A DNA stretch of 64,000 nt from Pseudomonas beijingensis (GTDB taxonomy: Bacteria > Pseudomonadota > Gammaproteobacteria > Pseudomonadales > Pseudomonadaceae), in the NCBI RefSeq assembly GCF_030687295.1, contig NZ_CP117425.1:4468001-4532000 (forward strand). The letters run 5' to 3'. The notes beneath the pieces were generated by a model. It did not search any database. It worked only from the letters and a program-made list of their open reading frames with translations, and had not been told where the DNA came from. The position numbers and the translations under genes were made by a program. Positions 7,740-24,933 of the stretch are shown piece after piece. Numbering within the stretch: the first letter of the stretch is position 1; each line of letters begins with the position of its first letter.

Positions 7740-8570
7740 TCAGCGCTTATAGGTCTGCAAGCCCGGCTTGATGCTCTTGTCGTCCAGGAACTGCTTCATG
7801 CCCTGCTCGCGGCCACCTTCGGTGTCGAGCAGGCGCGACTGGTCGAGCTTGGCGTACAGGTAATCCTCGTTCTGCTCCCAGGTCAGTTCGCGGCAGCGTT
7901 TGAAGCCATGCTTGGCCGCCCGCAGCACCACCGGGTTCTTTTCCAACAGGTTGCGCGCCAGTTCCACGGTGACTTCACGCAGCTGCGCCAAAGGCACGCT
8001 CTCATTGACCAGGCCCATTTCAGCGGCTTTCTGCCCGCCGAAGGTCTTGCCGGTCATGATGTAGTACAGCGATTGGCGATGGCCCACGGTATCGGCCATG
8101 GCCTTGCTGACGAGGTTGCCCGGCGGGATGCCCCAGTTGATTTCCGAGAGACCGAAGGTCGCTTCGTCGGCGCAGATCGCCAGGTCACATGCCACCAGCG
8201 GACTGAAACCGCCACCGAAGCACCAGCCGTTGACCATGGCGATGGTCGGCTTGGCGTACATGCGCAGCAATTTCCACTGCCACTGCGACGCTTCGCGACG
8301 GATTTTTTCCTGGAGGATTTCCGGCCCGGCATCCACTTCGCGGAAATATTCCTTGAGGTCCATGCCAGCGGTCCAGGCATCGCCGGCCCCGGTCAGCACC
8401 AATACGCCTGCGGCTGGATCCTGCTCCAGGGTCTCGAGCACGTCGATCATCTCGCGATTGAGGGTCGGGCTCATGGCGTTGCGTTTTTCCGGGCGATTGA
8501 GGGTGACCCAGGCGATGCCCTCCTCGATATCGACCTTGACCGTTTTCCAGCGACCTTCGTAATTGCTCAT
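7740..8570 (-). CDS. ech: Feruloyl-CoA hydratase/lyase (enoyl-CoA hydratase-lyase)
   Basis: 276 residues of the crotonase superfamily. It hydrates feruloyl-CoA and then cleaves it to vanillin plus acetyl-CoA. The N-terminal MSNYEGRWKTVKVDIEEGIA and the oxyanion-hole regions NRPEKRNAMSPTLN and GWCFGGGFSPLVACDLAICA are those of HCHL enzymes; the glutamate after the second region (ATFGLSEINWG) fits the catalytic acid. First gene of ech-vdh-fcs. It faces the MarR regulator across a 213-base AT-rich intergenic region, and its leader holds an AAGAACAA motif. Confidence 0.94.
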   Translation of the reverse strand: MSNYEGRWKTVKVDIEEGIAWVTLNRPEKRNAMSPTLNREMIDVLETLEQDPAAGVLVLTGAGDAWTAGMDLKEYFREVDAGPEILQEKIRREASQWQWKLLRMYAKPTIAMVNGWCFGGGFSPLVACDLAICADEATFGLSEINWGIPPGNLVSKAMADTVGHRQSLYYIMTGKTFGGQKAAEMGLVNESVPLAQLREVTVELARNLLEKNPVVLRAAKHGFKRCRELTWEQNEDYLYAKLDQSRLLDTEGGREQGMKQFLDDKSIKPGLQTYKR

Positions 8571-12385: not shown

Positions 12386-14808
12386 TCACCCCCGAACCCA
12401 CCGCCCCTGCCGACTCAACTCAGGCTTTTTTAAAAACACCCTCTGCGGCAGCAACAACCAAGCCAAGGCCGGCAGCAGAATCAAAGCCCCAAGCATATTC
12501 ACCAAAAACATAAAGGCCAGCAAAACCCCCATGTCAGCCTGGAACTTGATCGGCGAAAACGCCCAGGTCGACACCGCCACCGCCAATGTCATACCCGTCA
12601 GCAACACCACCTTGCCGGTGAACAGCAGCGCCTGGTAATACGCCTGGGCCAAGGTGTCGCCGGCACGCATCCGCGCCAGGATCACACTCAACACATAGAG
12701 CGCATAATCGACGCCAATACCCACACCCAATGCAATGACCGGCAATGTTGCGACTTTCACCCCCATGCCCAGCCCTACCATCAGCGCCTCGCACAGGATA
12801 GAGGTAAGCATCAGCGGCAGCATCGCGCACAGAGTCGCCCGCCAGCTGCGGAAGGTCAGCAAACACAGCAGGCTGACCGCACCGTAGACCCAGAACAGCA
12901 TCTCGCGCATGGACTTCTTCACGACGATATTGGTCGCGGCTTCGATCCCTGCGCTGCCGGCCGCCAGCATGAACTTGACCTCCGGCATCTGATGGCCGGC
13001 GATGAATTGCTCGCTGGCCTCCACCACCCGGTTCAACGTGTCAGCCTTGTGATCGGCCAGGTAGACATACAGCGACAGCATCGAACAACCCTGGTTGAAC
13101 AATTCTCGCGGTGCACGGGTTTGCACGGCACCCAACGCGCCGTCATTGGGGATCAGTTCATACCATTTGAAGTTGCCTTTCGTTATACCCGGCCGTGGCA
13201 ATCTTGCTCAGCGCCGCCATCGAGGTGGTCGATTCCACGCCGGGCAATTGCTCCAGTTGCCAAGCCAGCGCATCTACCGCGGACAGACTGGCGTAACGGG
13301 TGCATTGATCTTCTGGGGTCTTGATCATGACCACGAAAATATCCGAGCTGGCCGCGTAGTTTTGGGTCATGAACAACGCATCGCGGTTGTAGCGCGAGTC
13401 GGCACGCAACTCTGGAGCGCCGGGGTCCAGGTCGCCGATTTTCAGGTGCAGGCTCACGGCAAAACCAAACGCGGCCAACAGCAAGCCCGCCAACATGGCA
13501 CCCATGGCCCAACGGCGTTGGGTGAAAAGATCGAGCACGCGCCACAGTGGATGCTTTGATCTGCGCCTGCTGCTCGGTGGTTTCCGCACTGAGGCTGCGT
13601 TGCGCCGCCGCCGGGCTGACGCCGATATAGCTGAGCAGGATCGGCAGCAGGATCAGGTTGGTGAAGATCAGCACCGCCACGCCGAGGCTGGCGGTGATCG
13701 CCAGGTCCTGGATCACCCGAATATTGATCAGCAGCAACACCGCAAAACCGACCGCGTCACAGAGCAACGCGGTGATGCCGGCAGCGAACAGTCGGCGGAA
13801 GGTGTAGCGCGCGGCGACCACCCGGTGGGTGCCACGGCCGATGTCCTGCATGATGCCATTCATCTTCTGCGCGCCATGGCTCATGCCAATGGCGAACACC
13901 AGGAACGGCACCAGTGCCGAGTAAGGGTCCAGCTCATAACCGAGCAAGGCCAGCAGCCCCAGTTGCCAAAGCACCGCCGCCAGAGAACAGGTCACCACCA
14001 CCAGGGTGCTGCGCGCGCAACGGGTGTAGCCAAACAGCACCAATACCGTCACCAGTACGGCCACCACGAAGAACAGCAGAACCTGGGTCATGCCCTCGAT
14101 CAAGTCGCCGACGATCTTGGTAAAGCCGGTGATATGGATGCGCAGGTCATCGGTCTGGTACTTGTCGCGCAACGCCTCCAGTTGCCGGGAAAACTCGCCA
14201 TAGTCCAGCACCTTGCCCGTCTGCGGATTGATTTCCAGCAACGGCACGAAGATCACGCTGGACTTGAAGTTGCCGGCGACCAATTGACCGACTTCCCCGG
14301 AGCGGGCCACATTGGTCCGCACCTGCTCGATGCTGGCGGCCGATCCGTCGTAGTCGTCAGGGATCACCGTGCCGCCGTCGAGCCCTTCCTCGGTCACGGC
14401 GGTCCAGCGCGTGGTCGGGGTCCATAACGATTTCATGTAGGGTCGGTCGACACCCGGCAGCAGATAGAGCTCGTCGTTGAGCTTGGCCAGGGTATCGAGG
14501 TAGTCCTTGGTGAAAATGCTCCCCTGCTTGACCTCCACGGCAATGCGCAGCGAGTTGCCCAGGCCGCTCAATTCACTGCGGTTCTCAAGGAAGTTGGCGA
14601 CGTAGGGATGCCCGGTGGGAATGGTCTTCTCATAGCTGGCATTGATGCCGATGCGCGTGGCTTGCCAACCCAGCACCAAGGTCACCAGCAGGCACAGCAG
14701 GATCACCAGCGGGCGATGGTTGAAGATCGCCCGCTCGGCGAAGTTGCCCGACGCCCGGTCGAAGTCTTCCTGGCGGCCGATCACGGTTTGGATTCTTTCG
14801 TCTTTCAA
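12386..14808 (-). pseudogene. MMPL/RND-family exporter, interrupted by two +1 frameshifts
   Basis: The conceptual protein is about 800 residues with two RND halves, each having a hydrophobic helix, a large periplasmic loop and a helix bundle; it resembles MmpL/HpnN-type lipid exporters rather than AcrB. The reading frame changes twice. At 13555-13557 an extra A in CAAAGC must be removed to join ...QQAQIK to HPLWRVLDLFTQRRW. Near 13172-13176 an extra A in GAAAGG must be removed to join ...IATAGYNE to GNFKWYELIPNDG. Both neighbouring frames encode conserved text, so the gene was intact recently or the bases are sequence errors. TTG 14808 is preferred as start (AGGAG seven bases upstream). Last gene of the calA operon. 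Confidence 0.8.
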
Positions 14809-14860
14809 GTTTGACTCCTGTTGCACGAGCCGTGGCCCGATAGCGCTACACCGTGAAGTT

Positions 14861-15964
14861 TCAAGGTTGACCGGAGGCCCGCGGATCCTGGTCAGCGGCC
14901 ACGCCGGTCAAACCGACGCTGGCCAGGCTGCCGTCGACCGCCTGTTGCATGGCAGCGACGGTCCCGCCGCTGCGGCTCTGACGCTTGTCAAAGCTGCGGC
15001 CCTGGTCATGACTGAAGAGAAGCTCGCCACTCTGGCTGGCCAGCAACAGGCCGCCGTCGCGCAGTTCGAGGGCGCTCGCCAGGGTTGATTCGATACCGGT
15101 ATCGAGGCGTCGCCAACTGCCGCCACGGTCATCGGACCACCAGGCGTTTCCGCGCAAGCCATAGATGATCAAGGCCCCATCGCGGGTGCCGAGCAGGCCG
15201 AAAAAGCTGCCCTCATAAGGTGACTTCAAGGCTTGGAATGACTGCCCGGCATCGGTCGAACGCAACAGCAGGCCGCGCTCCCCCACCAGCAGCAGGTCCT
15301 TGCCCACGGCGCGAATGCCATACAGGTTCAAACCCTGGGGATTTTCCACATGCCGCATCCACGGTTGCCAGCTTCGCCCGCCGTCATCGGTACGGTAGAT
15401 CTGGTTGTAGGCACCCACAACGTAGCCGTGCAGGCGGTCACTGAAATACAGGTCGAGAAACGGTTTGTCCGGTCCGTCATCGAGCATGTGCCGTGCCTGT
15501 GCCAGGTGGCTGGCACCGCCGGGTTGATTGGCATCGCGCTCAGCGACCTGCACCGCCAGGGCGATGGCGCGCTCACCGTCGAGTTGCTTTTGCCAGGTTT
15601 CCCCGCCGTCCTGGGTGTGCAGCACCACGCCCAGGTGACCGACCGCCCAGCCCTGCTCGGCATCGACGAATTGCACCGCCGTCAGGCTGACGCTGACCGG
15701 TACCTTGGCCTGGCGCCAACTCACGCCAGCGTCATCGGAGAGCAGCACGATCCCACGCTCCCCCACCGCCACCAGGCGTTCGCCGGCCCGGGCCAGCCCA
15801 AGCAATACCGCGCGCGGGGCCTTGGCCGTCGGCAGTGCCGGTTGCTGCAACACCGCCAATGTCGTGGCCTGTGCGCCCCAGGGCACGTTTGCCAACAAGC
15901 ACCCCACCAGGGCGCAAGCACCCCATAGCGAACCGCGGCGCGCAAAGATTTTTTCAACGTTCAT
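14861..15964 (-). CDS. YCF48/BNR-repeat beta-propeller, exported
   Basis: 367 residues with an N-terminal signal peptide ending near AQA. Six Asp-box repeats are visible, among them SDDAGVSWRQ, TQDGGETWQK, TDDGGRSWQP, STDAGQSFQA, SDDRGGSWRR and SHDQGRSFDK, which build a propeller of the YCF48/HCF136 family. In chloroplasts HCF136 is a photosystem II assembly factor; bacterial copies next to MMPL exporters, DUF1302 and DUF1329 have no settled role. Periplasmic scaffold or adaptor for the exporter is inferred. It lies 53 bases before the RND gene and 70 after DUF1329. Confidence 0.85.
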   Translation of the reverse strand: MNVEKIFARRGSLWGACALVGCLLANVPWGAQATTLAVLQQPALPTAKAPRAVLLGLARAGERLVAVGERGIVLLSDDAGVSWRQAKVPVSVSLTAVQFVDAEQGWAVGHLGVVLHTQDGGETWQKQLDGERAIALAVQVAERDANQPGGASHLAQARHMLDDGPDKPFLDLYFSDRLHGYVVGAYNQIYRTDDGGRSWQPWMRHVENPQGLNLYGIRAVGKDLLLVGERGLLLRSTDAGQSFQALKSPYEGSFFGLLGTRDGALIIYGLRGNAWWSDDRGGSWRRLDTGIESTLASALELRDGGLLLASQSGELLFSHDQGRSFDKRQSRSGGTVAAMQQAVDGSLASVGLTGVAADQDPRASGQP

Positions 15965-16033
15965 ATCGTTATTCCGCCTGGAAAATCGTAAGCGACCGTG
16001 GCGAACCTCCTCCTCGCCACGGCCACCACAGGT

Positions 16034-17395
16034 TCAGCGCATGTTTTCGTTGGCCATGGCATCTGGGGTGAAATAGGACGCCGAAGGCTTCGCGACCTTC
16101 TGGTACTGAACCGCCAGGTCGTTGCTCGATGAGTTGAGGAAGTAGGCCCCGGTGTCGAGGTTGTAGCTGCCCCACATGACCTGTGCGGTAAGGGCCGGCA
16201 GATCAGGTGCCAGCAGCGTCAGCGAGTACATCTGCCGGCCGAGTTTGCCCTGGGCGTCATAACCGTCGGCCATCAGGATCTGCCAGGAGTCTTCGTCGAC
16301 GTAGTAGGTCCGACGCGGCACGACATGGCGCTTGCCGGATTTGAGCGTGGCCTCGACCACCCAGACCCGATGCTTCTCCCAACGCACCAGATCAGGATTG
16401 AGGAAGTTCGCCTTGACCAGGTCGTCGCTCTTGGCGAGCGCGGCGCGGTTATTGTTGTAGCCGACGATCAACTCTTTCTTGCCCACCAGCTTGAGGTCAT
16501 AGCGATCGGTCGGCCCGAACAGCATGAACGCCTCGTCGAACAGGCCAACCCCGGAGGTCACGAAGTCCGGCGTGTCATAGGCAATGTTCGGCGCCCGGCG
16601 AACCCGGCGCTGGCCGACCAGATACTGCCAGGCCGCCCGATTGGCCGGGTCCAGGTCCCAATGAGTCATCAGGCCTTCGCCGGCCTTGGACGATGGCAAC
16701 TCTGTGAACAGCTTGCCCAGCAGGTACTTGCCCGAATAGTTTTCCAGGCTGCCGCCTTCGACGTAGTAGGGAAACTGGTAGGTGTATTGGGCCCGGGTCG
16801 CCTGGACTTTCTTGCCGCCGGCGGTCATCAGCCAGGTATCGAAAGGCGAGCTGATGGTGTCGCCGCCCTGCCACGACAAACGATAATTCCACAGCACCTG
16901 CGCACCGTTTTCCGGGATCGGGAACGGGATGCCGCCGTAGGCGTTGGAAACCTTCTCGCTGTCCACGTCCAGCGTGGCGCGGGTGGCATTCTTGCTGGTG
17001 TTGTCATACACCCATTGCGGCGCCGCGGCCGAACGATGGGTCGGGTACACGTCCAGGCGATAGTCCGGGTACTTCTTGAGCAGCAGCTTGGTGCCTTCGG
17101 CCAGTTCGTTGGCGTACTGCTCCATGTTCGCGGCTTTGATCGAATACAGCGGTTTCTCGCTGGCGAATGGATCGGGGCGCTTGTCTCCCGGTTTGTAGCC
17201 GGGCGTGACCTGGGTGTAACCGCCCTGCCACGCCGGGATACTGCCATCGGCATTACCGGCACGCTCGCCGCCCAGGGGGGTCAGATCGGTTTTCAAACGT
17301 GCGGCCTGTTCAGGCGATACGGCCGCCTGCGCCAGCCCCATGCCGGCCAGGGCCAGGGTCAGGACGCAGGTGTTCAGGAAAGCTGTGTTCTGCAT
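16034..17395 (-). CDS. DUF1329 periplasmic/outer-membrane-associated protein
   Basis: 453 residues with a signal peptide (TCVLTLALAGMGLAQA). Typical DUF1329 text includes LKTDLTPLGGERAGNADGS, IPAWQGGY, YGGIPFPIPENGAQVLWNYR and RRTYYVDEDSWQI. The C-terminal part resembles the LolA/LolB-like lipid-carrier fold assigned to the family, so binding of a hydrophobic ligand in the periplasm is plausible. It starts 16 bases after DUF1302, and DUF1302/DUF1329 pairs recur in proteobacteria near hydrophobic-substrate catabolism. Function not demonstrated. Confidence 0.88.
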   Translation of the reverse strand: MQNTAFLNTCVLTLALAGMGLAQAAVSPEQAARLKTDLTPLGGERAGNADGSIPAWQGGYTQVTPGYKPGDKRPDPFASEKPLYSIKAANMEQYANELAEGTKLLLKKYPDYRLDVYPTHRSAAAPQWVYDNTSKNATRATLDVDSEKVSNAYGGIPFPIPENGAQVLWNYRLSWQGGDTISSPFDTWLMTAGGKKVQATRAQYTYQFPYYVEGGSLENYSGKYLLGKLFTELPSSKAGEGLMTHWDLDPANRAAWQYLVGQRRVRRAPNIAYDTPDFVTSGVGLFDEAFMLFGPTDRYDLKLVGKKELIVGYNNNRAALAKSDDLVKANFLNPDLVRWEKHRVWVVEATLKSGKRHVVPRRTYYVDEDSWQILMADGYDAQGKLGRQMYSLTLLAPDLPALTAQVMWGSYNLDTGAYFLNSSSNDLAVQYQKVAKPSASYFTPDAMANENMR

Positions 17396-17410
17396 GGCGA
17401 ATCCACCTTA

Positions 17411-19060
17411 TTAGAATGAGGTTTTCACGTAGAGCGAGACGAAGTCGCGGTCGGCCAACGACTGTCCGTAACTGAAATTGCCGTCCTCGCGCAGCCCGGC
17501 TTTCGGTGCGCCGAAGAAGTTCACGTAGTTGAGGCCGACATCCCAGCGTTGCAGATAGGTGGCTTTGAGCCCGACACTCCAGTCACCGGAATGGGTGTTG
17601 CCGAAGCCGGATTTGTTGACCGCCGATGAACGCCCATCGAGCACTATCCCCATGCCAATCGGCACGGTCAGGTCGATCCCGTCGACAATCTGGAAGTACG
17701 CCGGCTCGATCAATACCCGCAGCGCCGTGGCATCGCGGGTGGTGTTGGAATCCAGCGCGGCAGCGTTCTTGGTCACGCTCAAGGTGCGGTTCCAAGCCAG
17801 TTCGGCCAGGGCCGAGCCGCCGTCCCAGAACGCGGTGGGCGATAACAGGTAAATCGCCGACAGGTTGGCATGGGCGGTCTTGCCCCTGGCGAACAACTCA
17901 TTGTCGCCACCATCGGCCTCCATGCCGGGGGTCACCACTTGCAGGTTGCTCACCAGCGGTGCGTTCCAGCGCACCGACGTTTCACCGGCAAAGTTGAACG
18001 GGCCGTAGGCGGTGGAGAAACTGACGCCGGCGGTCTTGATATCTTCGGCGTAGACCTGCCGATAGGAACCCAGGATCGGCAAGCCGGTGGCCGCTGCCGC
18101 CGGACCGTCCAAGTACGCGTACAACCCGATCGGCGCCTTGTCGTGATACTGGGCCGCGTAGAAACCCAGCTCCAGTTCGGTGCCGCTCGGCTTGTAGCGA
18201 ATCTGCATGCCGCCCTGCCCCGAATTGCGCGGTTTCAGATCGCCGCCATTGACCGTGTCGTTACCGAACACTTCGCGCAACGGACCACTGCCGTAACCGA
18301 TGGCATCGACATCGCTCAGGTAGCTGCCGGCACCGGGCAGGTTGGAACGCTCCCACTCAAACTGATAGTAAGCGCCCACCGACAGCTGCGGGTTGATCTG
18401 CAACTGCCCGGAGATTTGATTGACCGGGCGCAGGATCTCCTTGAACTGAGTCCCCGGCACGCTGAGCAACTTGACGACGTCGGTCGGGCCTTGGGCATTG
18501 GCAATGCCGTTGCCACCATAGAACAGGCTTTCCCCGTAGATCAGGCTGTGTCGGCCCAGGCGCGCCACGCCCTGGGAGTCTTCACCGAGGTCACCGCGCA
18601 AGAACACGAAGGCATCGAGAATTTCCGCGTCGCGACCGTGGAGCTTGCGGGTTTCGCTGAGGAAGTGCGGTTGCTCGTTGCTGTCGGTGTCCTGGTTATA
18701 GATATCGTCGTACCAGGCCGCGCCGCTCACGCGCAGGCCATAGTTTTGCCGGCTGAGGTCCATTTCGGAGAACAGATCCAGGCGGTTGGAGACCAGGCCA
18801 CGGCTGAAGTTCTTATCGCCCTGGCTCTGGATCGAGGGGTACAGGCCGTTGGCGGTTGGCGCGTTGACCAAGCGGCTGTCCTGCCCCTGCAAGCGCCAGG
18901 CCTGGCTGTACTTGATGGTGTTGTCCCAGCGCAATTTCCAATCGGAGTCACCCAGGTCCATTTGCATGGCCTCGACCCGATCGACCATCACACCGGTGCT
19001 GCATAACGCCAGGAACAGGGCGCAATGCTTGAAACGAAAGCTATCTTTGAGGTTATCCAT
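17411..19060 (-). CDS. DUF1302 outer-membrane channel-like protein
   Basis: 549 residues with a signal peptide (FKHCALFLALCSTGVMVDRVEA). Alternating short strands run throughout and the protein ends in LYVKTSF, the aromatic C-terminal signature of outer-membrane barrels. Text such as LRWDNTIKYSQAWRLQ and NRLDLFSEMDLSRQNYGLR is diagnostic of DUF1302. Likely an outer-membrane conduit for the operon's aromatic or hydrophobic substrate. A run of AANAANAA motifs precedes its ATG. It follows calA by 91 bases. Confidence 0.87.
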   Translation of the reverse strand: MDNLKDSFRFKHCALFLALCSTGVMVDRVEAMQMDLGDSDWKLRWDNTIKYSQAWRLQGQDSRLVNAPTANGLYPSIQSQGDKNFSRGLVSNRLDLFSEMDLSRQNYGLRVSGAAWYDDIYNQDTDSNEQPHFLSETRKLHGRDAEILDAFVFLRGDLGEDSQGVARLGRHSLIYGESLFYGGNGIANAQGPTDVVKLLSVPGTQFKEILRPVNQISGQLQINPQLSVGAYYQFEWERSNLPGAGSYLSDVDAIGYGSGPLREVFGNDTVNGGDLKPRNSGQGGMQIRYKPSGTELELGFYAAQYHDKAPIGLYAYLDGPAAAATGLPILGSYRQVYAEDIKTAGVSFSTAYGPFNFAGETSVRWNAPLVSNLQVVTPGMEADGGDNELFARGKTAHANLSAIYLLSPTAFWDGGSALAELAWNRTLSVTKNAAALDSNTTRDATALRVLIEPAYFQIVDGIDLTVPIGMGIVLDGRSSAVNKSGFGNTHSGDWSVGLKATYLQRWDVGLNYVNFFGAPKAGLREDGNFSYGQSLADRDFVSLYVKTSF

Positions 19061-19072
19061 GGACGCTTCTCA

Positions 19073-19086
19073 TTATTGTTATTTTT
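19073..19086 (-). promoter_or_regulatory. CA motif in DUF1302 leader
   Basis: Coding strand AAAAATAACAATAA holds three overlapping AANAANAA matches about 12 bases before the ATG. Candidate Hfq/Crc target inside the operon. Confidence 0.5.
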
Positions 19087-19151
19087 GGGCATGGCTTTGG
19101 CAGCCAACACGCTCAGGTCGCGGCTTGCGCCGCTTTCTACGGGTGCGCATT

Positions 19152-19919
19152 TCAGATGTAGGTAGAGGCCAATCCACCATCGACCGGCAGGTTGACGCCG
19201 TTGATCCAGCGCGATTCGTCGGCACACAGGAAAGCGATCACCGCCGCCACCTCATCGGCGTAAGCGGGACGTTTCATGCGGTGGGCATCGGCCTGGGTCC
19301 GGGCCTCGCCGAGCATGCTCACGAAGTCGTCGAGGATGGGCGTGAATACCGGGCCTGGGGCGACACTGTTCATGCGCACCGAATGCTCAAGGAACCAGGG
19401 TTGGGCCTGCAGGTAATTCCAGACGATCAAGGCTTCCTTAAAGTACTGGTAGCAGGTCTGGTTCGCCACCGGGTGGTCGGCCAGCCAGGCTTGCGCGGCG
19501 GCAAAATCGTCGATGCGCGCCAGCGCCTTGTGCTGTTCCAGGCGTAACGGCCATTCGGCGCCGAGGATCGAGGCGATATTGACGATGCTGCCGCCAGCGC
19601 TGATACGTGGCAGCAGCGCATGGCTCAAGTGACGCAGCCCAAGGTAGTTGACCCGCGCCAGCAGTTGCGGGTTGGCGGTGCCCGGCACGCCGGCAATGTT
19701 GCACAGGCTGTCGAGCCGTGCGGGCAGCTGTGGCAGCAACCGATCGATGTTCTCGGCGCTACTCAAGTCGCCCTGCACAAAACCGTCCAGGGTCATGTGG
19801 GGCGCCTTGAGGTCCACGCCAATCACTTGGGCGCCATGAGCGCGCAGCAGGCTCGCGGTGGCGGCACCGATACCCGACGAGACACCGGTCACCAGCACAA
19901 TCTTGTTGTCGAGTTTCAT
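19152..19919 (-). CDS. calA: Coniferyl alcohol dehydrogenase (short-chain dehydrogenase)
   Basis: 255-residue SDR. The nucleotide-binding TGVSSGIG lies at residues 11-18; the YxxxK active-site pair is in CYQYFKEALIVW, with an upstream Ser in VNIASILGAEWP. The whole protein, including NIAGVPGTANPQL, KRPAYADEVAAVIAFLCA and the ending NLPVDGGLASTY, closely matches what I recall of CalA from Pseudomonas sp. HR199, which oxidises coniferyl alcohol to coniferyl aldehyde with NAD+. It follows the aldehyde dehydrogenase gene by 69 bases in the sigma-54 operon. Product flow would be coniferaldehyde to ferulate and then Fcs/Ech/Vdh. Confidence 0.88.
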   Translation of the reverse strand: MKLDNKIVLVTGVSSGIGAATASLLRAHGAQVIGVDLKAPHMTLDGFVQGDLSSAENIDRLLPQLPARLDSLCNIAGVPGTANPQLLARVNYLGLRHLSHALLPRISAGGSIVNIASILGAEWPLRLEQHKALARIDDFAAAQAWLADHPVANQTCYQYFKEALIVWNYLQAQPWFLEHSVRMNSVAPGPVFTPILDDFVSMLGEARTQADAHRMKRPAYADEVAAVIAFLCADESRWINGVNLPVDGGLASTYI

Positions 19920-19930
19920 GTTGAGTCCTC

Positions 19931-19941
19931 TTATTATTTTT
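19931..19941 (-). promoter_or_regulatory. CA motif in calA leader
   Basis: Coding strand AAAAATAATAA, overlapping AANAANAA matches immediately before the AGAGGA ribosome site of calA. Candidate Hfq/Crc target. Confidence 0.5.
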
Positions 19942-19988
19942 GTGTACCCACGGGCCCTCAGCTCATCGGGCCCGGTAAAACCGACCTG

Positions 19989-21459
19989 TCAGAACGGGTA
20001 GACCGGCGCCGTATCCTTGACCGTCACCCACTGCCATTGGGTGTATTCGTCCCAGTCCGCCGGGCCGCCGACGCTGCCACCATTGCCCGAAGCGCCGCGC
20101 CCACCGAACGGGTTGACGCACTCATCGGCGACGGTCTGGTCATTGATGTGCAACATGCCGCACTGCAACCGCTCACCAATGGCCATGGCCCGGCCCACCG
20201 ACGGTGAAATGATCGCCGCCGCCAAACCGTACTCGGTGCGATTGGCCAACTCGATGGCTTCGTCATCGGTGGCAAAGCTGACCACCGTTGCCACCGGCCC
20301 GAAGACCTCCTCGTCAAAAGCGCGCATGCCCGGCTTCACGCCGCTGAGCACGGTGGCCTGGTAGAACAGCCGATCATGGTCGCCGCCTGCTTCCAGCCGG
20401 GCTCCGGCGCGCACGGTGTCACTGACGATGTCGTGGACCCGTTGCAACTGCCGCTGGTTGATCAGCGGCCCCATCGCGGCTTCTTGCCGGGCGGCGTTGC
20501 CGACGGTCATGGCCTGGGCCTTTTCCACCAGTTTGCGGGTCAGCTCGGCGGCGATGGATTCATGGGCGAGGATCAAGCCGGTGGCCATGCAAATCTGCCC
20601 TTGATGCAGCCAGGCGCCCCACGCCGCGTTTCGGGCGGCTAGGTCGAGGTCGGCGTCTTCGAGAATGATCAGTGGGTTCTTGCCGCCCAACTCCAGGGCG
20701 ACCTTCTTCAGGTTGCGCCCGGCCACCTCAGCAACTTTGCGACCCGCGCCGGTGGAGCCGGTGAAGGCGATCATGCGCACGTTAGGGTCACGGCACAGCG
20801 CCTCACCAGCATCCGCCGCGCCGGGCAACACTTGCAGCAAACCCTTGGGCAGGCCTGCTACTTCGAACAACCGGGCGATGAGGAAACCGCCACTCACCGG
20901 GGTCTGCGGATCCGGCTTGAGCACCACCGCGTTGCCCGCCGCCAGGGCCGGCGCGACGGAGCGCATGGACAGTACCAGGGGAAAATTGAAGGGCGAAATC
21001 ACTCCGACCACACCATGGGGTTGGCGCCGCGCAAAGGACAGACGCCCCGCCTCGCTGGGCAGGACCACCCCATGGGCCTGGGACAGCAGGCCGGCGGCCT
21101 GATGCAACAGCACGATGGCTTCGCGCACTTCGTGCTGGCCTTTGAACAGCGCGGCACCGGTCTCCCGCGCCACGTACAGCGCCAGCTCATCGAAGGACTG
21201 CTCGGCCACGTCGGCGGCCTTGCGGAAGATCGCCGCCCGTTGCCGCGGGCCCAGGGCCGCCCATGCCGGTTGGGCCAGGGCGGCGTCGCGACTGGCCTTG
21301 GCAATGTCGGCGGTGTCGGCGGTGGCACAGCGCATCAGTCGCTCACCAGTAGCCGGCTCGATGATCGATTGCAGCGGGCCCGAGGCAGGCACCCAATCCC
21401 CGTTGAAGACACATTCCGATTCGATCACCTGGGAGCAGGTGGCTTTTGGGTGCAGACAT
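19989..21459 (-). CDS. Aldehyde dehydrogenase, XylC/benzaldehyde-dehydrogenase type (probable coniferyl aldehyde dehydrogenase), apparent +1 frameshift near start
   Basis: About 489 residues. Catalytic Glu in ALELGGKNPLI and Cys in HQGQICMATG; FTGSTGAG cofactor loop. It resembles benzaldehyde dehydrogenases more than the known CalB, but its place directly before calA suggests it oxidises coniferyl aldehyde to ferulate. The best start, ATG 21459 with GGGAG six bases upstream (MSAPKSHLLPGDRI), is not in frame with the main body. Removing one base from CC at 21416-21417 joins it to ECVFNGDWVPASGP. Without that, no in-frame start with a ribosome site exists. First gene behind the sigma-54 promoter at 21540. 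Confidence 0.78.
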
Positions 21460-21539
21460 TTAACACTCCCGGCTCTTTGTTGGTTGTCATCGTTTGGCGC
21501 ACCTGGAAGGTATCGACGCAAACGCCGTGCAAGTGCTTG

Positions 21540-21556
21540 AGCAAGCGCTGTGCCGG
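21540..21556 (-). promoter_or_regulatory. Sigma-54 (-24/-12) promoter of the aldehyde dehydrogenase-calA operon
   Basis: The minus strand reads CGGCACAGCGCTTGCT. Against the consensus TGGCAC-N5-TTGC it keeps GG and GC separated by exactly ten bases, plus CAC and TTGCT. It points at the aldehyde dehydrogenase, leaving a leader of about 70 bases, and a sigma-54 activator gene lies divergently 190 bases away. Confidence 0.8.
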
Positions 21557-21578
21557 TTTTGCCCGCAGGCCTTGATAA

Positions 21579-21617
21579 ACCTGGCGAAAGGCTCTGGCTC
21601 AAGGTTCTTCGCCAGGT
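21579..21617. promoter_or_regulatory. Upstream activating sequence for the V4R-type activator
   Basis: A perfect ten-base inverted repeat, ACCTGGCGAA and TTCGCCAGGT, separated by 19 bases, starts about 23 bp upstream of the -24 element (centre about 42 bp). Another copy of TCGCCAGGT lies at 21701-21709 and a diverged ACCTGGCCG at 21642-21650. Paired inverted repeats upstream of a sigma-54 promoter are how XylR/DmpR/HbpR-type activators bind. Binding inferred. Confidence 0.7.
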
Positions 21618-21745
21618 ATGACGCACAGGACGCCTGCGCCAACCTGGCCGTTGGCCAGCTGCCGCTTGTTCATTTGATAAAGTTATGCTTAATAACTATC
21701 TCGCCAGGTGATCATTTCGATCATCCCGTCATCAGGGGCATAACA

Positions 21746-23521
21746 ATGAATAATCCCCACTGCCAGTTGCCGGATCACCGGATCACCACCGAGCATTACC
21801 ATCCACGGGGTGACAGCAACGAGCTGAGCGACAGCAGTTCGCCCACAACGGCAGAACTCACCGCGTGCCTGTTTTTCTCCCCCGACGATGGCCGTATCTG
21901 GCTCAACGACCAACGCATGTTGCTGCTGCACAGTTCATCCTTCGGTGCGTTACGCCGGGAAATCATCGAACGCCAGGGGCTGGAGCAGGCCCGAGGCATG
22001 CTCACCCGCACCGGCTATTCCTCCGGCGCCCGGGATGCCCGGCTGATTCGTGAACGCTGGCCTCACGCCGATGCCGCGGCGGTGTTCCGCGCCGGCACGC
22101 ATCTGCATACCCTTGAAGGCATGACCAAGGTCGAGCCGCTGCATTTCAAGTTCGACGCCGACTCGGGCTTCTATGAGGGGGAGTTTCTCTGGCATCACTC
22201 CTGCGAGGCCGACGAGCATGTCGCCGCCTATGGCATCGGGCAGGATCCGGTGTGCTGGACCGAACTGGGCTACGCCATCGGTTTCGTCAGCGGGTTGTTC
22301 GGGCAACTGGTGGTCTTTCGCGAAGTGGAATGCCGGGGCATGGGCCACGAACGCTGCCGAGTCGTCGGCAAGACCGCCGAACAATGGGGTGACATCGAGC
22401 AGGATCTGAATTACCTCAACGCCTCCCCGCCGACGGTCGTCGCGCGCGCCGACACTCAGTCCGACAGTGTGGCCGGAGCCGCCCTGCTGCCGGACAGCGA
22501 ACAGCCGCTGATCGGTGCCAGCGCCGCCTTCAACGCCGCGACCCAGGCTTTGCAACGGGTGGCCTTGACCCCAGCCACCGTGCTGGTCAGCGGCGAATCC
22601 GGCGTGGGCAAGGAGATGTTCGCCCGCCAGTTGCACCAACTGAGCCGGCGCCGTGACGGCCCGTTCATCGCCCTCAACTGCGCGGCCATCCCCGACAATC
22701 TGATCGAGGCTGAACTGTTCGGCGTCGAGCGCGGTGCCTACACCGGCGCCACCCATTCACGCCCCGGTCGTTTCGAGCGAGCTCACGGTGGTACGTTGTT
22801 CCTGGACGAGATCACCTGCCTGAGCCTGGCCGGGCAAAGCAAGTTGCTGCGTGCCTTGCAGGAGCGGGAAATCGAACGGGTCGGCGGCGGTCACGGCATC
22901 AAGGTCGACGTGCGGGTCGTGGCGGCCACCAACATCGACCTGCGCAAGGCAGTGGCGGACGGCGCGTTCCGTGAAGACCTGTTCTACCGGCTCAACGTCT
23001 ACCCCATCGCCCTGCCGCCCCTGCGCGAGCGCCGTGATGACATACCGTTGCTGATCAATGCCTTTCTCACGCGCTTTTGCCAGGAATACGGCCGCACACC
23101 GATGGGCCTGACCATGCGTGCGTTGAAGGTGTTGTTGCGCTACGACTTTCCGGGCAACGTGCGGGAATTGCAGAACCTCATCGAACGGGGCCTGATCGCC
23201 AGCGAGGAAGGCCAGGCGATTGACCTGGTCCACTTGTTTCGCAATGAGCAATTGCCGGTGGATGCGTACTCCGTGGACCACCTCGGCGGCCTCTCGCCGA
23301 TGGGCCTGGCCGCCAACGATGCCGCAGAAAAACCGGCGCTGCTCCAGTCCCTCAGCCAACTGGACTCGGACTTCTCCATTGACGGCCTGGAATCACGCCT
23401 GATCAACGAAGCTCTGCAACTGAGCAGCGGCAACCTGGCGGCGGCCGCGCGCTCGTTGGGACTGAGCCGGGCGCAGTTCGCGTATCGGTTGAAGAAGCAT
23501 CAACGGGGTGTCCCAGAGTAA
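21746..23521 (+). CDS. Sigma-54-dependent activator, XylR_N-V4R-AAA+-HTH (XylR/DmpR/AreR type)
   Basis: 591 residues. About 35-140 is the XylR_N aromatic-effector domain ([21 protein letters not shown]), followed by V4R ([48 protein letters not shown]). The AAA+ domain has Walker A GESGVGKE, the sigma-54 contact loop as GAYTGAT, and Walker [11 protein letters not shown] Fis-type HTH closes the protein ([21 protein letters not shown]). Such proteins bind an aromatic inducer directly and then activate sigma-54 promoters; here the inducer may be coniferyl alcohol or aldehyde. ATG 21746 is chosen, since a longer in-frame start at 21494 would overlap the promoter region. Confidence 0.9.
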
Positions 23522-23629: not shown

Positions 23630-24295
23630 CTGTGGGAGCGAGCTTGCTCGCGATGGCGGTGGGTCAGTTGGCATTGATGTCGACTGTGCTGACGTCATCG
23701 CGAGCAAGCTCGCTCCCACATTGGTTTCTGGGTGACTACAAGGTCTGTGTCAAGCTCGCTCCCACACGGGTCTCCGGGCGACTGCAAGGTCTGTATCCAC
23801 CACAAGTCCCCTGTGGGAGCGAGCTTGCTCGCGATGGCGGTGGGTCAGTTGGCATTGATGTCGACTGTGCTGACATCATCGCGAGCAAGCTCGCTCCCAC
23901 ATTGGTTTCTGGGTGACTACAAGGTCTGTGTCAAGCTCGCTCCCACACGGTCTCCGGGCGACTGCAAGGTCTGTATCCACACCACAAGTCCCCTGTGGGG
24001 CGAGCTTGCTCGCGATGGCGGTGGGTCAGTTGGCATTGATGTCGACTGTGCTGACATCATCGCGAGCAAGCTCGCTCCCACATTGGTTTTGGTGACTACA
24101 AGGTCTGTGTCAAGCTCGCTCCCACACGGGTCTCCGGGCGACTGCAAGGTCTGTATCCACCACAAGTCCCCTGTGGGAGCGAGCTTGCTCGCGATGGCGG
24201 TGGGTCAGTTCGCATTGAGGTTGGCTGTGCTGACATCATCGCGAGCAAGCTCGCTCCCACATTGGTTTCTGGGTGACTGCAAGGTATGTGTCCAA
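23630..24295. repeat. Tandem array, about 3.7 copies of a 178-182 bp REP-containing unit
   Basis: Units begin at 23630, 23811, 23993 and 24171 (spacings 181, 182 and 178). Each holds a REP doublet (CTGTGGGAGCGAGCTTGCTC and its inverse) plus a half unit CAAGCTCGCTCCCACACGG and shared spacer text such as ACTGCAAGGTCTGTATCCAC. Differences are single-base changes or indels (GTGGGGCG for GTGGGAGCG in copy three, an extra AC before CCACAAG). The 779 bases between 23522 and 24300 hold nothing else. Open frames crossing the array are spurious. Confidence 0.92.
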
Positions 24296-24300
24296 GCCGC

Positions 24301-24933
24301 TCAATCCGTCGTGCTCGCCGCCAGCACAGCAAGCGTTCGGCGCTTGGGGTTCCAGATGCTCAGGCACCAGACGCCCCACCACTCCAGGCCATCTTCGAAA
24401 TAATCGCTCCAGGGCTCCCGTGCTGAATCGTGCTCGTCGCTGGCGGTCCAGTTAACGTTGAAGTTGTCGACCCAATTCAACACCACGACATCAGCGTCGT
24501 CTTCGAGCCCGAGCAGGTCGAGCCATTCCTTGAACAGCGCTTGCGGGGTGTCGTCGGCGAAGCGAGTGCCATAGGGCGGTTCGCAGAAGGCAGCGTACAA
24601 GGCATAAGTATGCTGCTGATCATCTTTGTCGACGCGCATGAGTCGGGTCACTTCGTCCCGATTCAACGGCTTGGCGATAGCCTTGTTCAAATCCCAATCC
24701 ATGGTCGGGGGCGCAGCCTCGACATAGCGAGGGTCCAGGGTCAGTTGACGGTGACGCTCCAGCCATTGCGCCTCGATGTGCTGGAACAGCAGGCCCACGG
24801 CCTGGCGATGGCGCGCCTCGTCAACCGCCTCACTCGCCTCGGGCGCGAGCACCAGGAATTCGAAGGCGCACCCGGCCTTTTCCATTCGCTGGCGCAGGGA
24901 TGCGCTGGCTGCCTGTTCAACGACGGTCAACAT
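24301..24933 (-). CDS. Protein of unknown function overlapping the AraC-type gene
   Basis: 210 residues, acidic, no signal peptide or membrane segment. Notable text: LLFQHIEAQWLERHRQLTLDP, LNRDEVTRLMRVDKDDQQHTYALYAAFCEPPYGT, a Trp-rich C-terminal part (YFEDGLEWWGVWCLSIWNP). I do not recognise the family. Start 24933 has GGAG seven bases upstream and lies inside the last 17 bases of the AraC-type gene, so the two are translationally coupled. A longer start at 24957 is less likely. The gene ends directly at the REP array. Confidence 0.7.
   Translation of the reverse strand: MLTVVEQAASASLRQRMEKAGCAFEFLVLAPEASEAVDEARHRQAVGLLFQHIEAQWLERHRQLTLDPRYVEAAPPTMDWDLNKAIAKPLNRDEVTRLMRVDKDDQQHTYALYAAFCEPPYGTRFADDTPQALFKEWLDLLGLEDDADVVVLNWVDNFNVNWTASDEHDSAREPWSDYFEDGLEWWGVWCLSIWNPKRRTLAVLAASTTD

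Follow-up and report, generated by a model that had tools for sequence, protein, structure and literature searches.

The window analysed here, 64,000 nucleotides of the 6.45 Mb genome of Pseudomonas beijingensis (G000:C1:4468001-4532000), contains an operon in which the genes of an aldehyde dehydrogenase (ALDH) and of CalA, a short-chain dehydrogenase of the coniferyl-alcohol dehydrogenase subfamily, are followed by a quartet coding for a DUF1302 protein, a DUF1329 protein, a YCF48-type propeller and an MMPL permease. The operon diverges from the gene of a XylR/DmpR-type sigma-54 activator. In this lineage the quartet has been inherited together with calA, and in sister operons its place is taken by a single PF13557 gene; both the association and the replacement are apparently new, and neither was found in the open-licence literature (preprints and most subscription journals lay outside this scope). 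We read the operon as combining the oxidation of coniferyl-type alcohols with an AmeABCD-type trans-envelope transporter for the substrate or product of CalA, directed more probably outward, and give this reading a probability of about 0.6; the substrate, direction and assembly of the transporter are what we infer.

Linkage of the quartet to calA

In a genus sample of 149 Pseudomonas genomes, YCF48 was present at an identity of at least 60% in 16 genomes and CalA at E <= 1e-60 in 30. The quartet followed calA directly in all 16. Twelve of the remaining 14 CalA-positive genomes carried activator, ALDH and calA without a quartet, and the last two (G117 and G003, with CalA at 45%) were set aside as a different arrangement, no XylR-type activator being found in the stretch. 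A named collection, from which the best 79 loci of 122 DUF1302 matches were examined, split sharply by DUF1302 identity into 45 loci at 67% or more and 34 loci at 43-47%. calA lay upstream of the quartet in 43 of the 45, and a single locus among the 34, that of Ideonella sp. B508-1 (L208), carried calA. Gene order was kept across the relatives, the closest of which in the named collection were P. zanjanensis, P. thivervalensis and P. kilonensis, with a DUF1302 identity of 98% and the nearest position in the calA tree too. The coupling of calA and quartet asserted by the preliminary description is thus supported for this quartet lineage.

These counts bear on whether the quartet could be a passenger that stands behind calA without a joint function. 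With 14 of the 30 CalA-positive genomes having no quartet next to calA, even if two of them hold only the distant CalA, calA does not need the quartet. The strength of the linkage in both samples, the three lineages with calA 60-100% identical to that of the window and the movement of calA with its own module while the head of the operon is exchanged (see below) nevertheless make a mere passenger very improbable.

At wider taxonomic scale, CalA was found in one of the 369 genomes of the class sample, that one being the source genome, and at E <= 1e-50 in 13 of the 398 genomes of the phylum sample, three being other Pseudomonas of the genus sample; the class sample therefore under-represents CalA. 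Outside Pseudomonas the phylum sample held four CalA loci above 57% identity. L228, from another gammaproteobacterial order, carried the full quartet operon, L226 had calA with a PF13557 gene, L225 (G655) had calA, ALDH and activator in another arrangement, and L227 (G747) had calA with a major facilitator superfamily (MFS) gene; neither module was detected in the latter two. No module was found at the three loci checked (L229-L231) among six with CalA-like matches at 42-46%.

Quartets also occur without calA. The 33 such loci at 43-47% DUF1302 identity, again among the best 79 of 122, had a XylR-like activator within the stretch in only three cases, and one of the 33, L186, had neither YCF48 nor MMPL. 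In the genus, 20 non-calA loci were fetched from more than 100 YCF48 matches listed; 19 were full quartets, and L131 was without a detectable DUF1329 gene. Some neighbours were scanned in 15, and degradative enzymes were clear near five: a CoA ligase and a thiolase (L118), a flavin monooxygenase (L126), a Rieske oxygenase with a fumarylacetoacetate hydrolase (L128), an acyl-CoA dehydrogenase (L131) and a keto-acid oxidoreductase (L135). The other neighbours were regulators, MFS carriers, chemoreceptors and less telling enzymes (sulfatase, nitroreductase, decarboxylase), and a XylR_N activator stood beside the quartet of L116. The preliminary description had named a quartet occurring mostly without catabolic genes or sigma-54 activators as the observation that would count against it; this was found in part for quartets generally. 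With so few XylR-type activators near non-calA quartets, regulation by sigma-54 characterises the calA lineage and a small number of others and does not extend to quartets as such.

Three further observations concern these quartets. At L116 (13438-16511) and L119 (3929-7228) non-calA quartets lie by a chemoreceptor gene and a XylR-type activator, identified by Pfam in L116 and by tblastn only in L119. This layout recalls the Azoarcus arrangement described in PMC6449761. L132 (7104-19998) has a full quartet beside a second, divergent DUF1302-DUF1329 pair, and G129, a Pseudomonas assembly of many contigs, gave 13 YCF48 matches, the most for one genome among the matches listed.

Exchange of transport modules

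The genus sample has 12 operons with activator, ALDH and calA and without a quartet, and in every one of them the gene after calA belongs to one family. Four were scanned by profile and assigned to PF13557 (Phenol_MetA_deg), and all 12 match one of these four at 67-100% identity. No PF13557 gene stood next to calA in any of the 16 quartet operons. The sister operons share with the quartet operons the slot directly after calA and the same kind of activator and promoter; they differ in having one gene of about 315 amino acids instead of four, and no pump. Separately, the quartet operon of L087 has a distant PF13557-like gene (33%, about 17867-18802) 1.5 kb beyond MMPL.

The histories of the genes were compared in quick IQ-TREE runs that carry support from the Shimodaira-Hasegawa-like approximate likelihood ratio test only, with long branches flagged for L225-L228. 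Tree groups were set by gene content, at a time when pairwise identities had been seen and the trees had not. In the calA tree, the 13 PF13557-type rows fell on one side of a branch (support 99), and a single clade of the Pseudomonas quartet-type rows was not rejected by the approximately unbiased (AU) test (0.738). The same clade was rejected in the ALDH tree (AU 0.0024), where the window's group of eight nests with nine PF13557-type rows (99), and in the activator tree of the 31 rows with this ALDH (AU 0.0054). Since the ALDH and activator trees conflict with the calA tree, calA together with its transport module has been exchanged beneath a shared head, which is apparently new. In other quartet operons (L093, L095, L096 and L098-L100; in the named collection L159-L168, L175 and L176) the activator is more distant (54-56%), and an ALDH of this type is missing next to calA. 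calA thus travels with its own module beneath different heads.

The DUF1329 and MMPL trees took in 18 of 46 calA-linked quartet loci. The 16 Pseudomonas quartets linked to calA formed one clade together with L177 and L178 (97 and 98, respectively), and L208 and L228 were nearest to each other and then to this clade. Since L177 and L178 nest inside, a single clade of all calA-linked quartets including L208 and L228 was rejected for DUF1329 (AU 0.032); for MMPL the result was borderline (0.059).

Operon layout, promoter and the interrupted permease gene

Profile searches against Pfam and NCBIfam bore out the gene identities and the divergent layout given in the preliminary description (Table 1). 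The six structural genes share one strand, as it stated, and this is the minus strand; the gaps are 69, 91, 15, 69 and 34 bases in place of its range of 16-108, and the fourth becomes 174 bases with an alternative YCF48 start at 15859. A scan of the minus-strand gaps for terminator-like sites found none.

Table 1. Features of the calA operon and its control region, in window positions. The recurrence of the palindromes was counted without a shuffle control.
Feature	Position	Strand	Basis
XylR/DmpR-type sigma-54 activator gene	21746..23521	+	XylR_N, V4R, Sigma54_activat (AAA+), HTH_8 (Pfam)
Upstream activating sequence (UAS) palindrome 1, candidate, TGATC-N5-GATCA	21709..21723	-	perfect in 6/8 aligned loci, 7/28 overall
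UAS palindrome 2, candidate, AGTTAT-N5-ATAACT	21681..21697	-	perfect in 8/8 aligned loci, 12/28 overall
Sigma-54 promoter element (-24/-12), facing the operon	21540..21555	-	pattern GGCAY-N5-TTGC
Aldehyde dehydrogenase (Aldedh)	19989..21428	-	Pfam; frame difference from relatives at 5' end
calA, short-chain coniferyl-alcohol dehydrogenase subfamily	19152..19919	-	NF009092, 394 bits, cut-off 242
DUF1302 (AmeA-like), predicted outer-membrane barrel	17411..19060	-	DUF1302, 385 bits, cut-off 23.2
DUF1329 (AmeB-like), predicted periplasmic LolA-like carrier	16034..17395	-	DUF1329, 414 bits, cut-off 23.1
YCF48/BNR propeller (AmeC-like), probable periplasmic protein	14861..15964	-	PSII_BNR/YCF48, 85.5 bits, cut-off 27
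MMPL/RND permease (AmeD-like), N-terminal piece	13183..14826	-	in-frame homology stops near 13.55 kb
MMPL/RND permease, middle piece, other frame	13158..13589	-	without a Pfam match of its own
MMPL/RND permease, C-terminal piece, third frame	12386..13201	-	Pfam, frame comparison

The activator has the complete domain set expected of a XylR/DmpR unit, with a helix-turn-helix domain of the Fis type. A start at 21494 (open reading frame (ORF) 21494-23521) was rejected as too long, since the coding signal and the onset of the relatives' matches place it near 21746; positions 21494-21745 are promoter region and not activator coding sequence. Sigma-54 control, as proposed earlier, is supported by the -24/-12 pattern, which was found directed at the operon in 28 of 28 divergent intergenic regions (16 loci with and 12 without the quartet), compared with 38 of 5600 dinucleotide shuffles. 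It recurred in 40 of the 42 testable loci of the named collection, some genomes of which overlap the first set; three of the 45 had no testable pair, and the element was absent in L145 and L147. The strict pattern was not found in L208 or L228, the latter having a near match. The candidate UAS palindromes are weak or absent in several of the 28 loci, and their centres lie 27 bases apart, slightly below the 29-42 of the paired palindromes described for XylR/DmpR sites (PMC6449761; like the other papers cited for background, this is drawn on in excerpt). The layout, with the -24/-12 element and paired palindromes 100-200 bases upstream, otherwise fits. Domains and sites together thus describe a XylR/DmpR-type sigma-54 regulatory unit, whose response to coniferyl alcohol or another effector is predicted.

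The oxidation of coniferyl alcohol by CalA is suggested by the family name, a weak basis by itself because PP_2426 of P. putida KT2440, formerly called calA, was shown to be an aldehyde reductase; HR199 was among the first sources of CalA (PMC7054097). The CalA of the window is a short-chain dehydrogenase. As to the ferulate genes that the preliminary description placed further along the pathway, ech is present in the window at 7740-8570, whereas fcs and vdh appear only as suitably sized ORFs beside it. The predicted structure of the DUF1302 protein resembles an OprD/Occ-like barrel in a fold comparison and that of the DUF1329 protein a LolA-like fold; when solved structures were searched by sequence, neither family had a meaningful match.

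The MMPL gene, previously described as one open frame, is interrupted near 13.55 kb and again near 13.18 kb and lies in three pieces, each in a different frame. In the genus sample all 15 calA-linked relatives have a single open frame, as do 76 of the 79 loci of the named collection, the other three being without one or both halves. Among the 20 non-calA genus loci, L117, L120 and L122 each have one stop in the MMPL stretch, possibly beyond the gene end. When the other genes were compared with one relative (55 genes, 63.6 kb of coding sequence aligned), seven had length differences not divisible by three, of which three left a net shift (one in a poorly aligned stretch) and four were compensated. 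Over the roughly 11 kb of operon and activator, comparison with L136, L137 or L138 gives three differences of this kind in each case. The comparisons with L136 and L137 add one in the 5' part of an OprD-like ORF, and that with the more distant L179 gives eight. At its 5' end, near 21.43 kb and slightly upstream of the called start, the ALDH gene departs in frame from its relatives. In this strain the module may be non-functional or may rely on a second MMPL encoded at 4600 kb; otherwise the break is an error of sequencing. It is the operon lineage that is assigned to the AmeABCD type, and the copy in this strain is not classed there as a functioning unit. The intact second MMPL (791 amino acids, 4600 kb) adjoins a second YCF48 gene (G000:C1 about 4602.4-4603.3 kb; L101 8434-9305), which also reads in several frames, so that this genome has a second broken component of such a system. 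Elsewhere in the window, at 23732-24403, an ORF translation repeats one phrase several times, which suggests that intergenic repeats cluster downstream of the activator gene.

Function and relation to known systems

In the mechanism that we favour, the sigma-54-activated operon would oxidise coniferyl-type (phenylpropanoid) alcohols by CalA and then by the aldehyde dehydrogenase. The MMPL subunit, of the resistance-nodulation-division (RND) type, would use the proton gradient to draw its hydrophobic ligand, the alcohol or the aldehyde, out of the periplasm or inner membrane, while YCF48 would hold the periplasmic complex together, the LolA-like DUF1329 protein would shield the ligand in transit and the DUF1302 barrel would serve as outer-membrane port. 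Net movement would more probably be outward than inward, clearing the membrane-toxic alcohol and aldehyde while catabolism proceeds. The trans-envelope complex of the preliminary description fits the fold models; its claim that the quartet is undescribed does not stand, as set out below.

The outward direction is slightly favoured because RND pumps and the tolerance phenotype of an ameABCD deletion fit outward clearance. Uptake is kept open by the PF13557 replacement and by growth data from P. putida. The quartet might then import poorly soluble or bulky coniferyl compounds such as dimers, esters or glycosides, with DUF1302 as selective entry port and DUF1329 passing the ligand on. We consider such import possible and on the whole unlikely. 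Coniferyl alcohol itself is small enough for diffusion. RND pumps of the HAE3 type are described as carrying their substrates to the periplasm, and cells from which ameABCD had been deleted tolerated monoterpene hydrocarbons less well and, when treated with a protonophore, accumulated slightly more Nile Red (PMC6394551).

Several observations weigh against the favoured reading. In this assembly the operon does not have the uninterrupted permease gene that a working AmeABCD-type transporter should have, and the MMPL protein of an intact relative finds its best NCBIfam match in TIGR00921 (HAE3) at 150 bits, below the cut-off of 351.9. L177 and L178 are nested quartets without calA, the former with a LysR gene and a chemoreceptor gene nearby. 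The PF13557 proteins of the sister operons, which we take to be outer-membrane channels of a passive family, fit uptake at least equally well. Deletion of ameABCD left growth on perillyl alcohol and aldehyde unchanged (PMC6394551), and PP_0765, PP_0766, PP_2018 and PP_2019 of P. putida are required for growth on Tween 20, which is also readable as uptake (PMC10866462).

A more specific form of uptake appears doubtful: quartet and PF13557 channel could be interchangeable entry modules, each matched to its own CalA variant, the quartet being energised by the RND protein and working inward or retrieving ligand. Were this so, an inward or envelope-retrieving route for phenylpropanoid alcohols would be unusual for an MMPL/RND protein. 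It is improbable that the quartet is an outer-membrane remodelling or vesicle ('nanopod') module that alters the envelope under hydrophobic load and does not carry substrate. DUF1302 and DUF1329 proteins do occur in a table of proteins published in work on Delftia nanopods (PMC3110197), and deletion of a Delftia DUF1329 gene is said in a 2026 paper to impair growth on phenanthrene (PMC13101534). That gene is unconfirmed, however, the main text of the cited source (PMC3958437) having neither 'DUF' nor '1722', and replacement of the quartet by a single PF13557 gene suits a transport role better.

The operon touches on a wider question: there is no consensus on what DUF1302 and DUF1329 do, and AmeABCD-like systems have been interpreted in print either as exporters of toxic compounds or as transporters that serve growth. 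Two comparable operons with the same kind of promoter differ here in their transport slot, a four-gene pump system in one and a single channel gene in the other, with the cassettes naturally exchanged. This natural pair therefore opens the question of direction, and of substrate, to clean comparison. The compound concerned is lignin-derived and relevant to vanillin production.

The literature does not allow the quartet to be called undescribed: it is of the AmeABCD type (2018), has been placed in aromatic regulons (2019) and resembles a 'Nanopod' cluster of 2026. AmeABCD of Castellaniella defragrans has the same four parts in the same order, with A a DUF1302 protein, B DUF1329, C of the COG4447/YCF48 type and D an RND permease, and catabolic genes for a hydrophobic plant compound lie beside it (PMC6394551). 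The quartet of the window agrees in gene order on one strand, in the predicted barrel of A and in the LolA superfamily model of B, and is likened to AmeABCD by gene families; it differs in its frame-broken D gene and in its setting, which is a calA operon with a sigma-54 head in place of a monoterpene island.

In Betaproteobacteria, DUF1302, PF07044, COG1033 and COG4447 were assigned to the AphR, AphS and AphT regulons, AphR belonging to the XylR/DmpR group, and a role in coping with toxic aromatics was proposed (PMC6449761). These regulons differ in serving phenol and related pathways, and 'coniferyl' is absent from the main text of that paper. A sigma-54 regulator with DUF1302 and DUF1329 also occurs in a phenol-hydroxylase cluster (PMC7012976). 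For P. putida, the four proteins named above were proposed to form a transport system on the basis of predicted contacts ranging from weak to strong (PMC10866462). Shared features are proteins of the DUF1302 and DUF1329 families together with a periplasmic protein and an RND transporter; the P. putida system differs in being encoded at two separate loci, as judged by gene numbers, and in its tie to growth on Tween 20. Elsewhere in the genome studied here, DUF1302 and DUF1329 genes are paired at two more loci, and YCF48 and MMPL genes at one. The two DUF1302-DUF1329 loci (G000:C1 278-281 kb, L007, and 2066-2069 kb, L008) showed no match to YCF48 or MMPL within the stretches fetched and resemble this split arrangement. 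Finally, the 'Nanopod' cluster of the benzene degrader ORM2a combines a porin-like protein, DUF1329, a YCF48-related protein and an MMPL transporter and leaves the direction open (PMC13101534); it differs in coming from an anaerobic member of the Desulfobacterota, in its extra stress-protein genes and in that DUF1302 is not among the components named in the available part of the paper.

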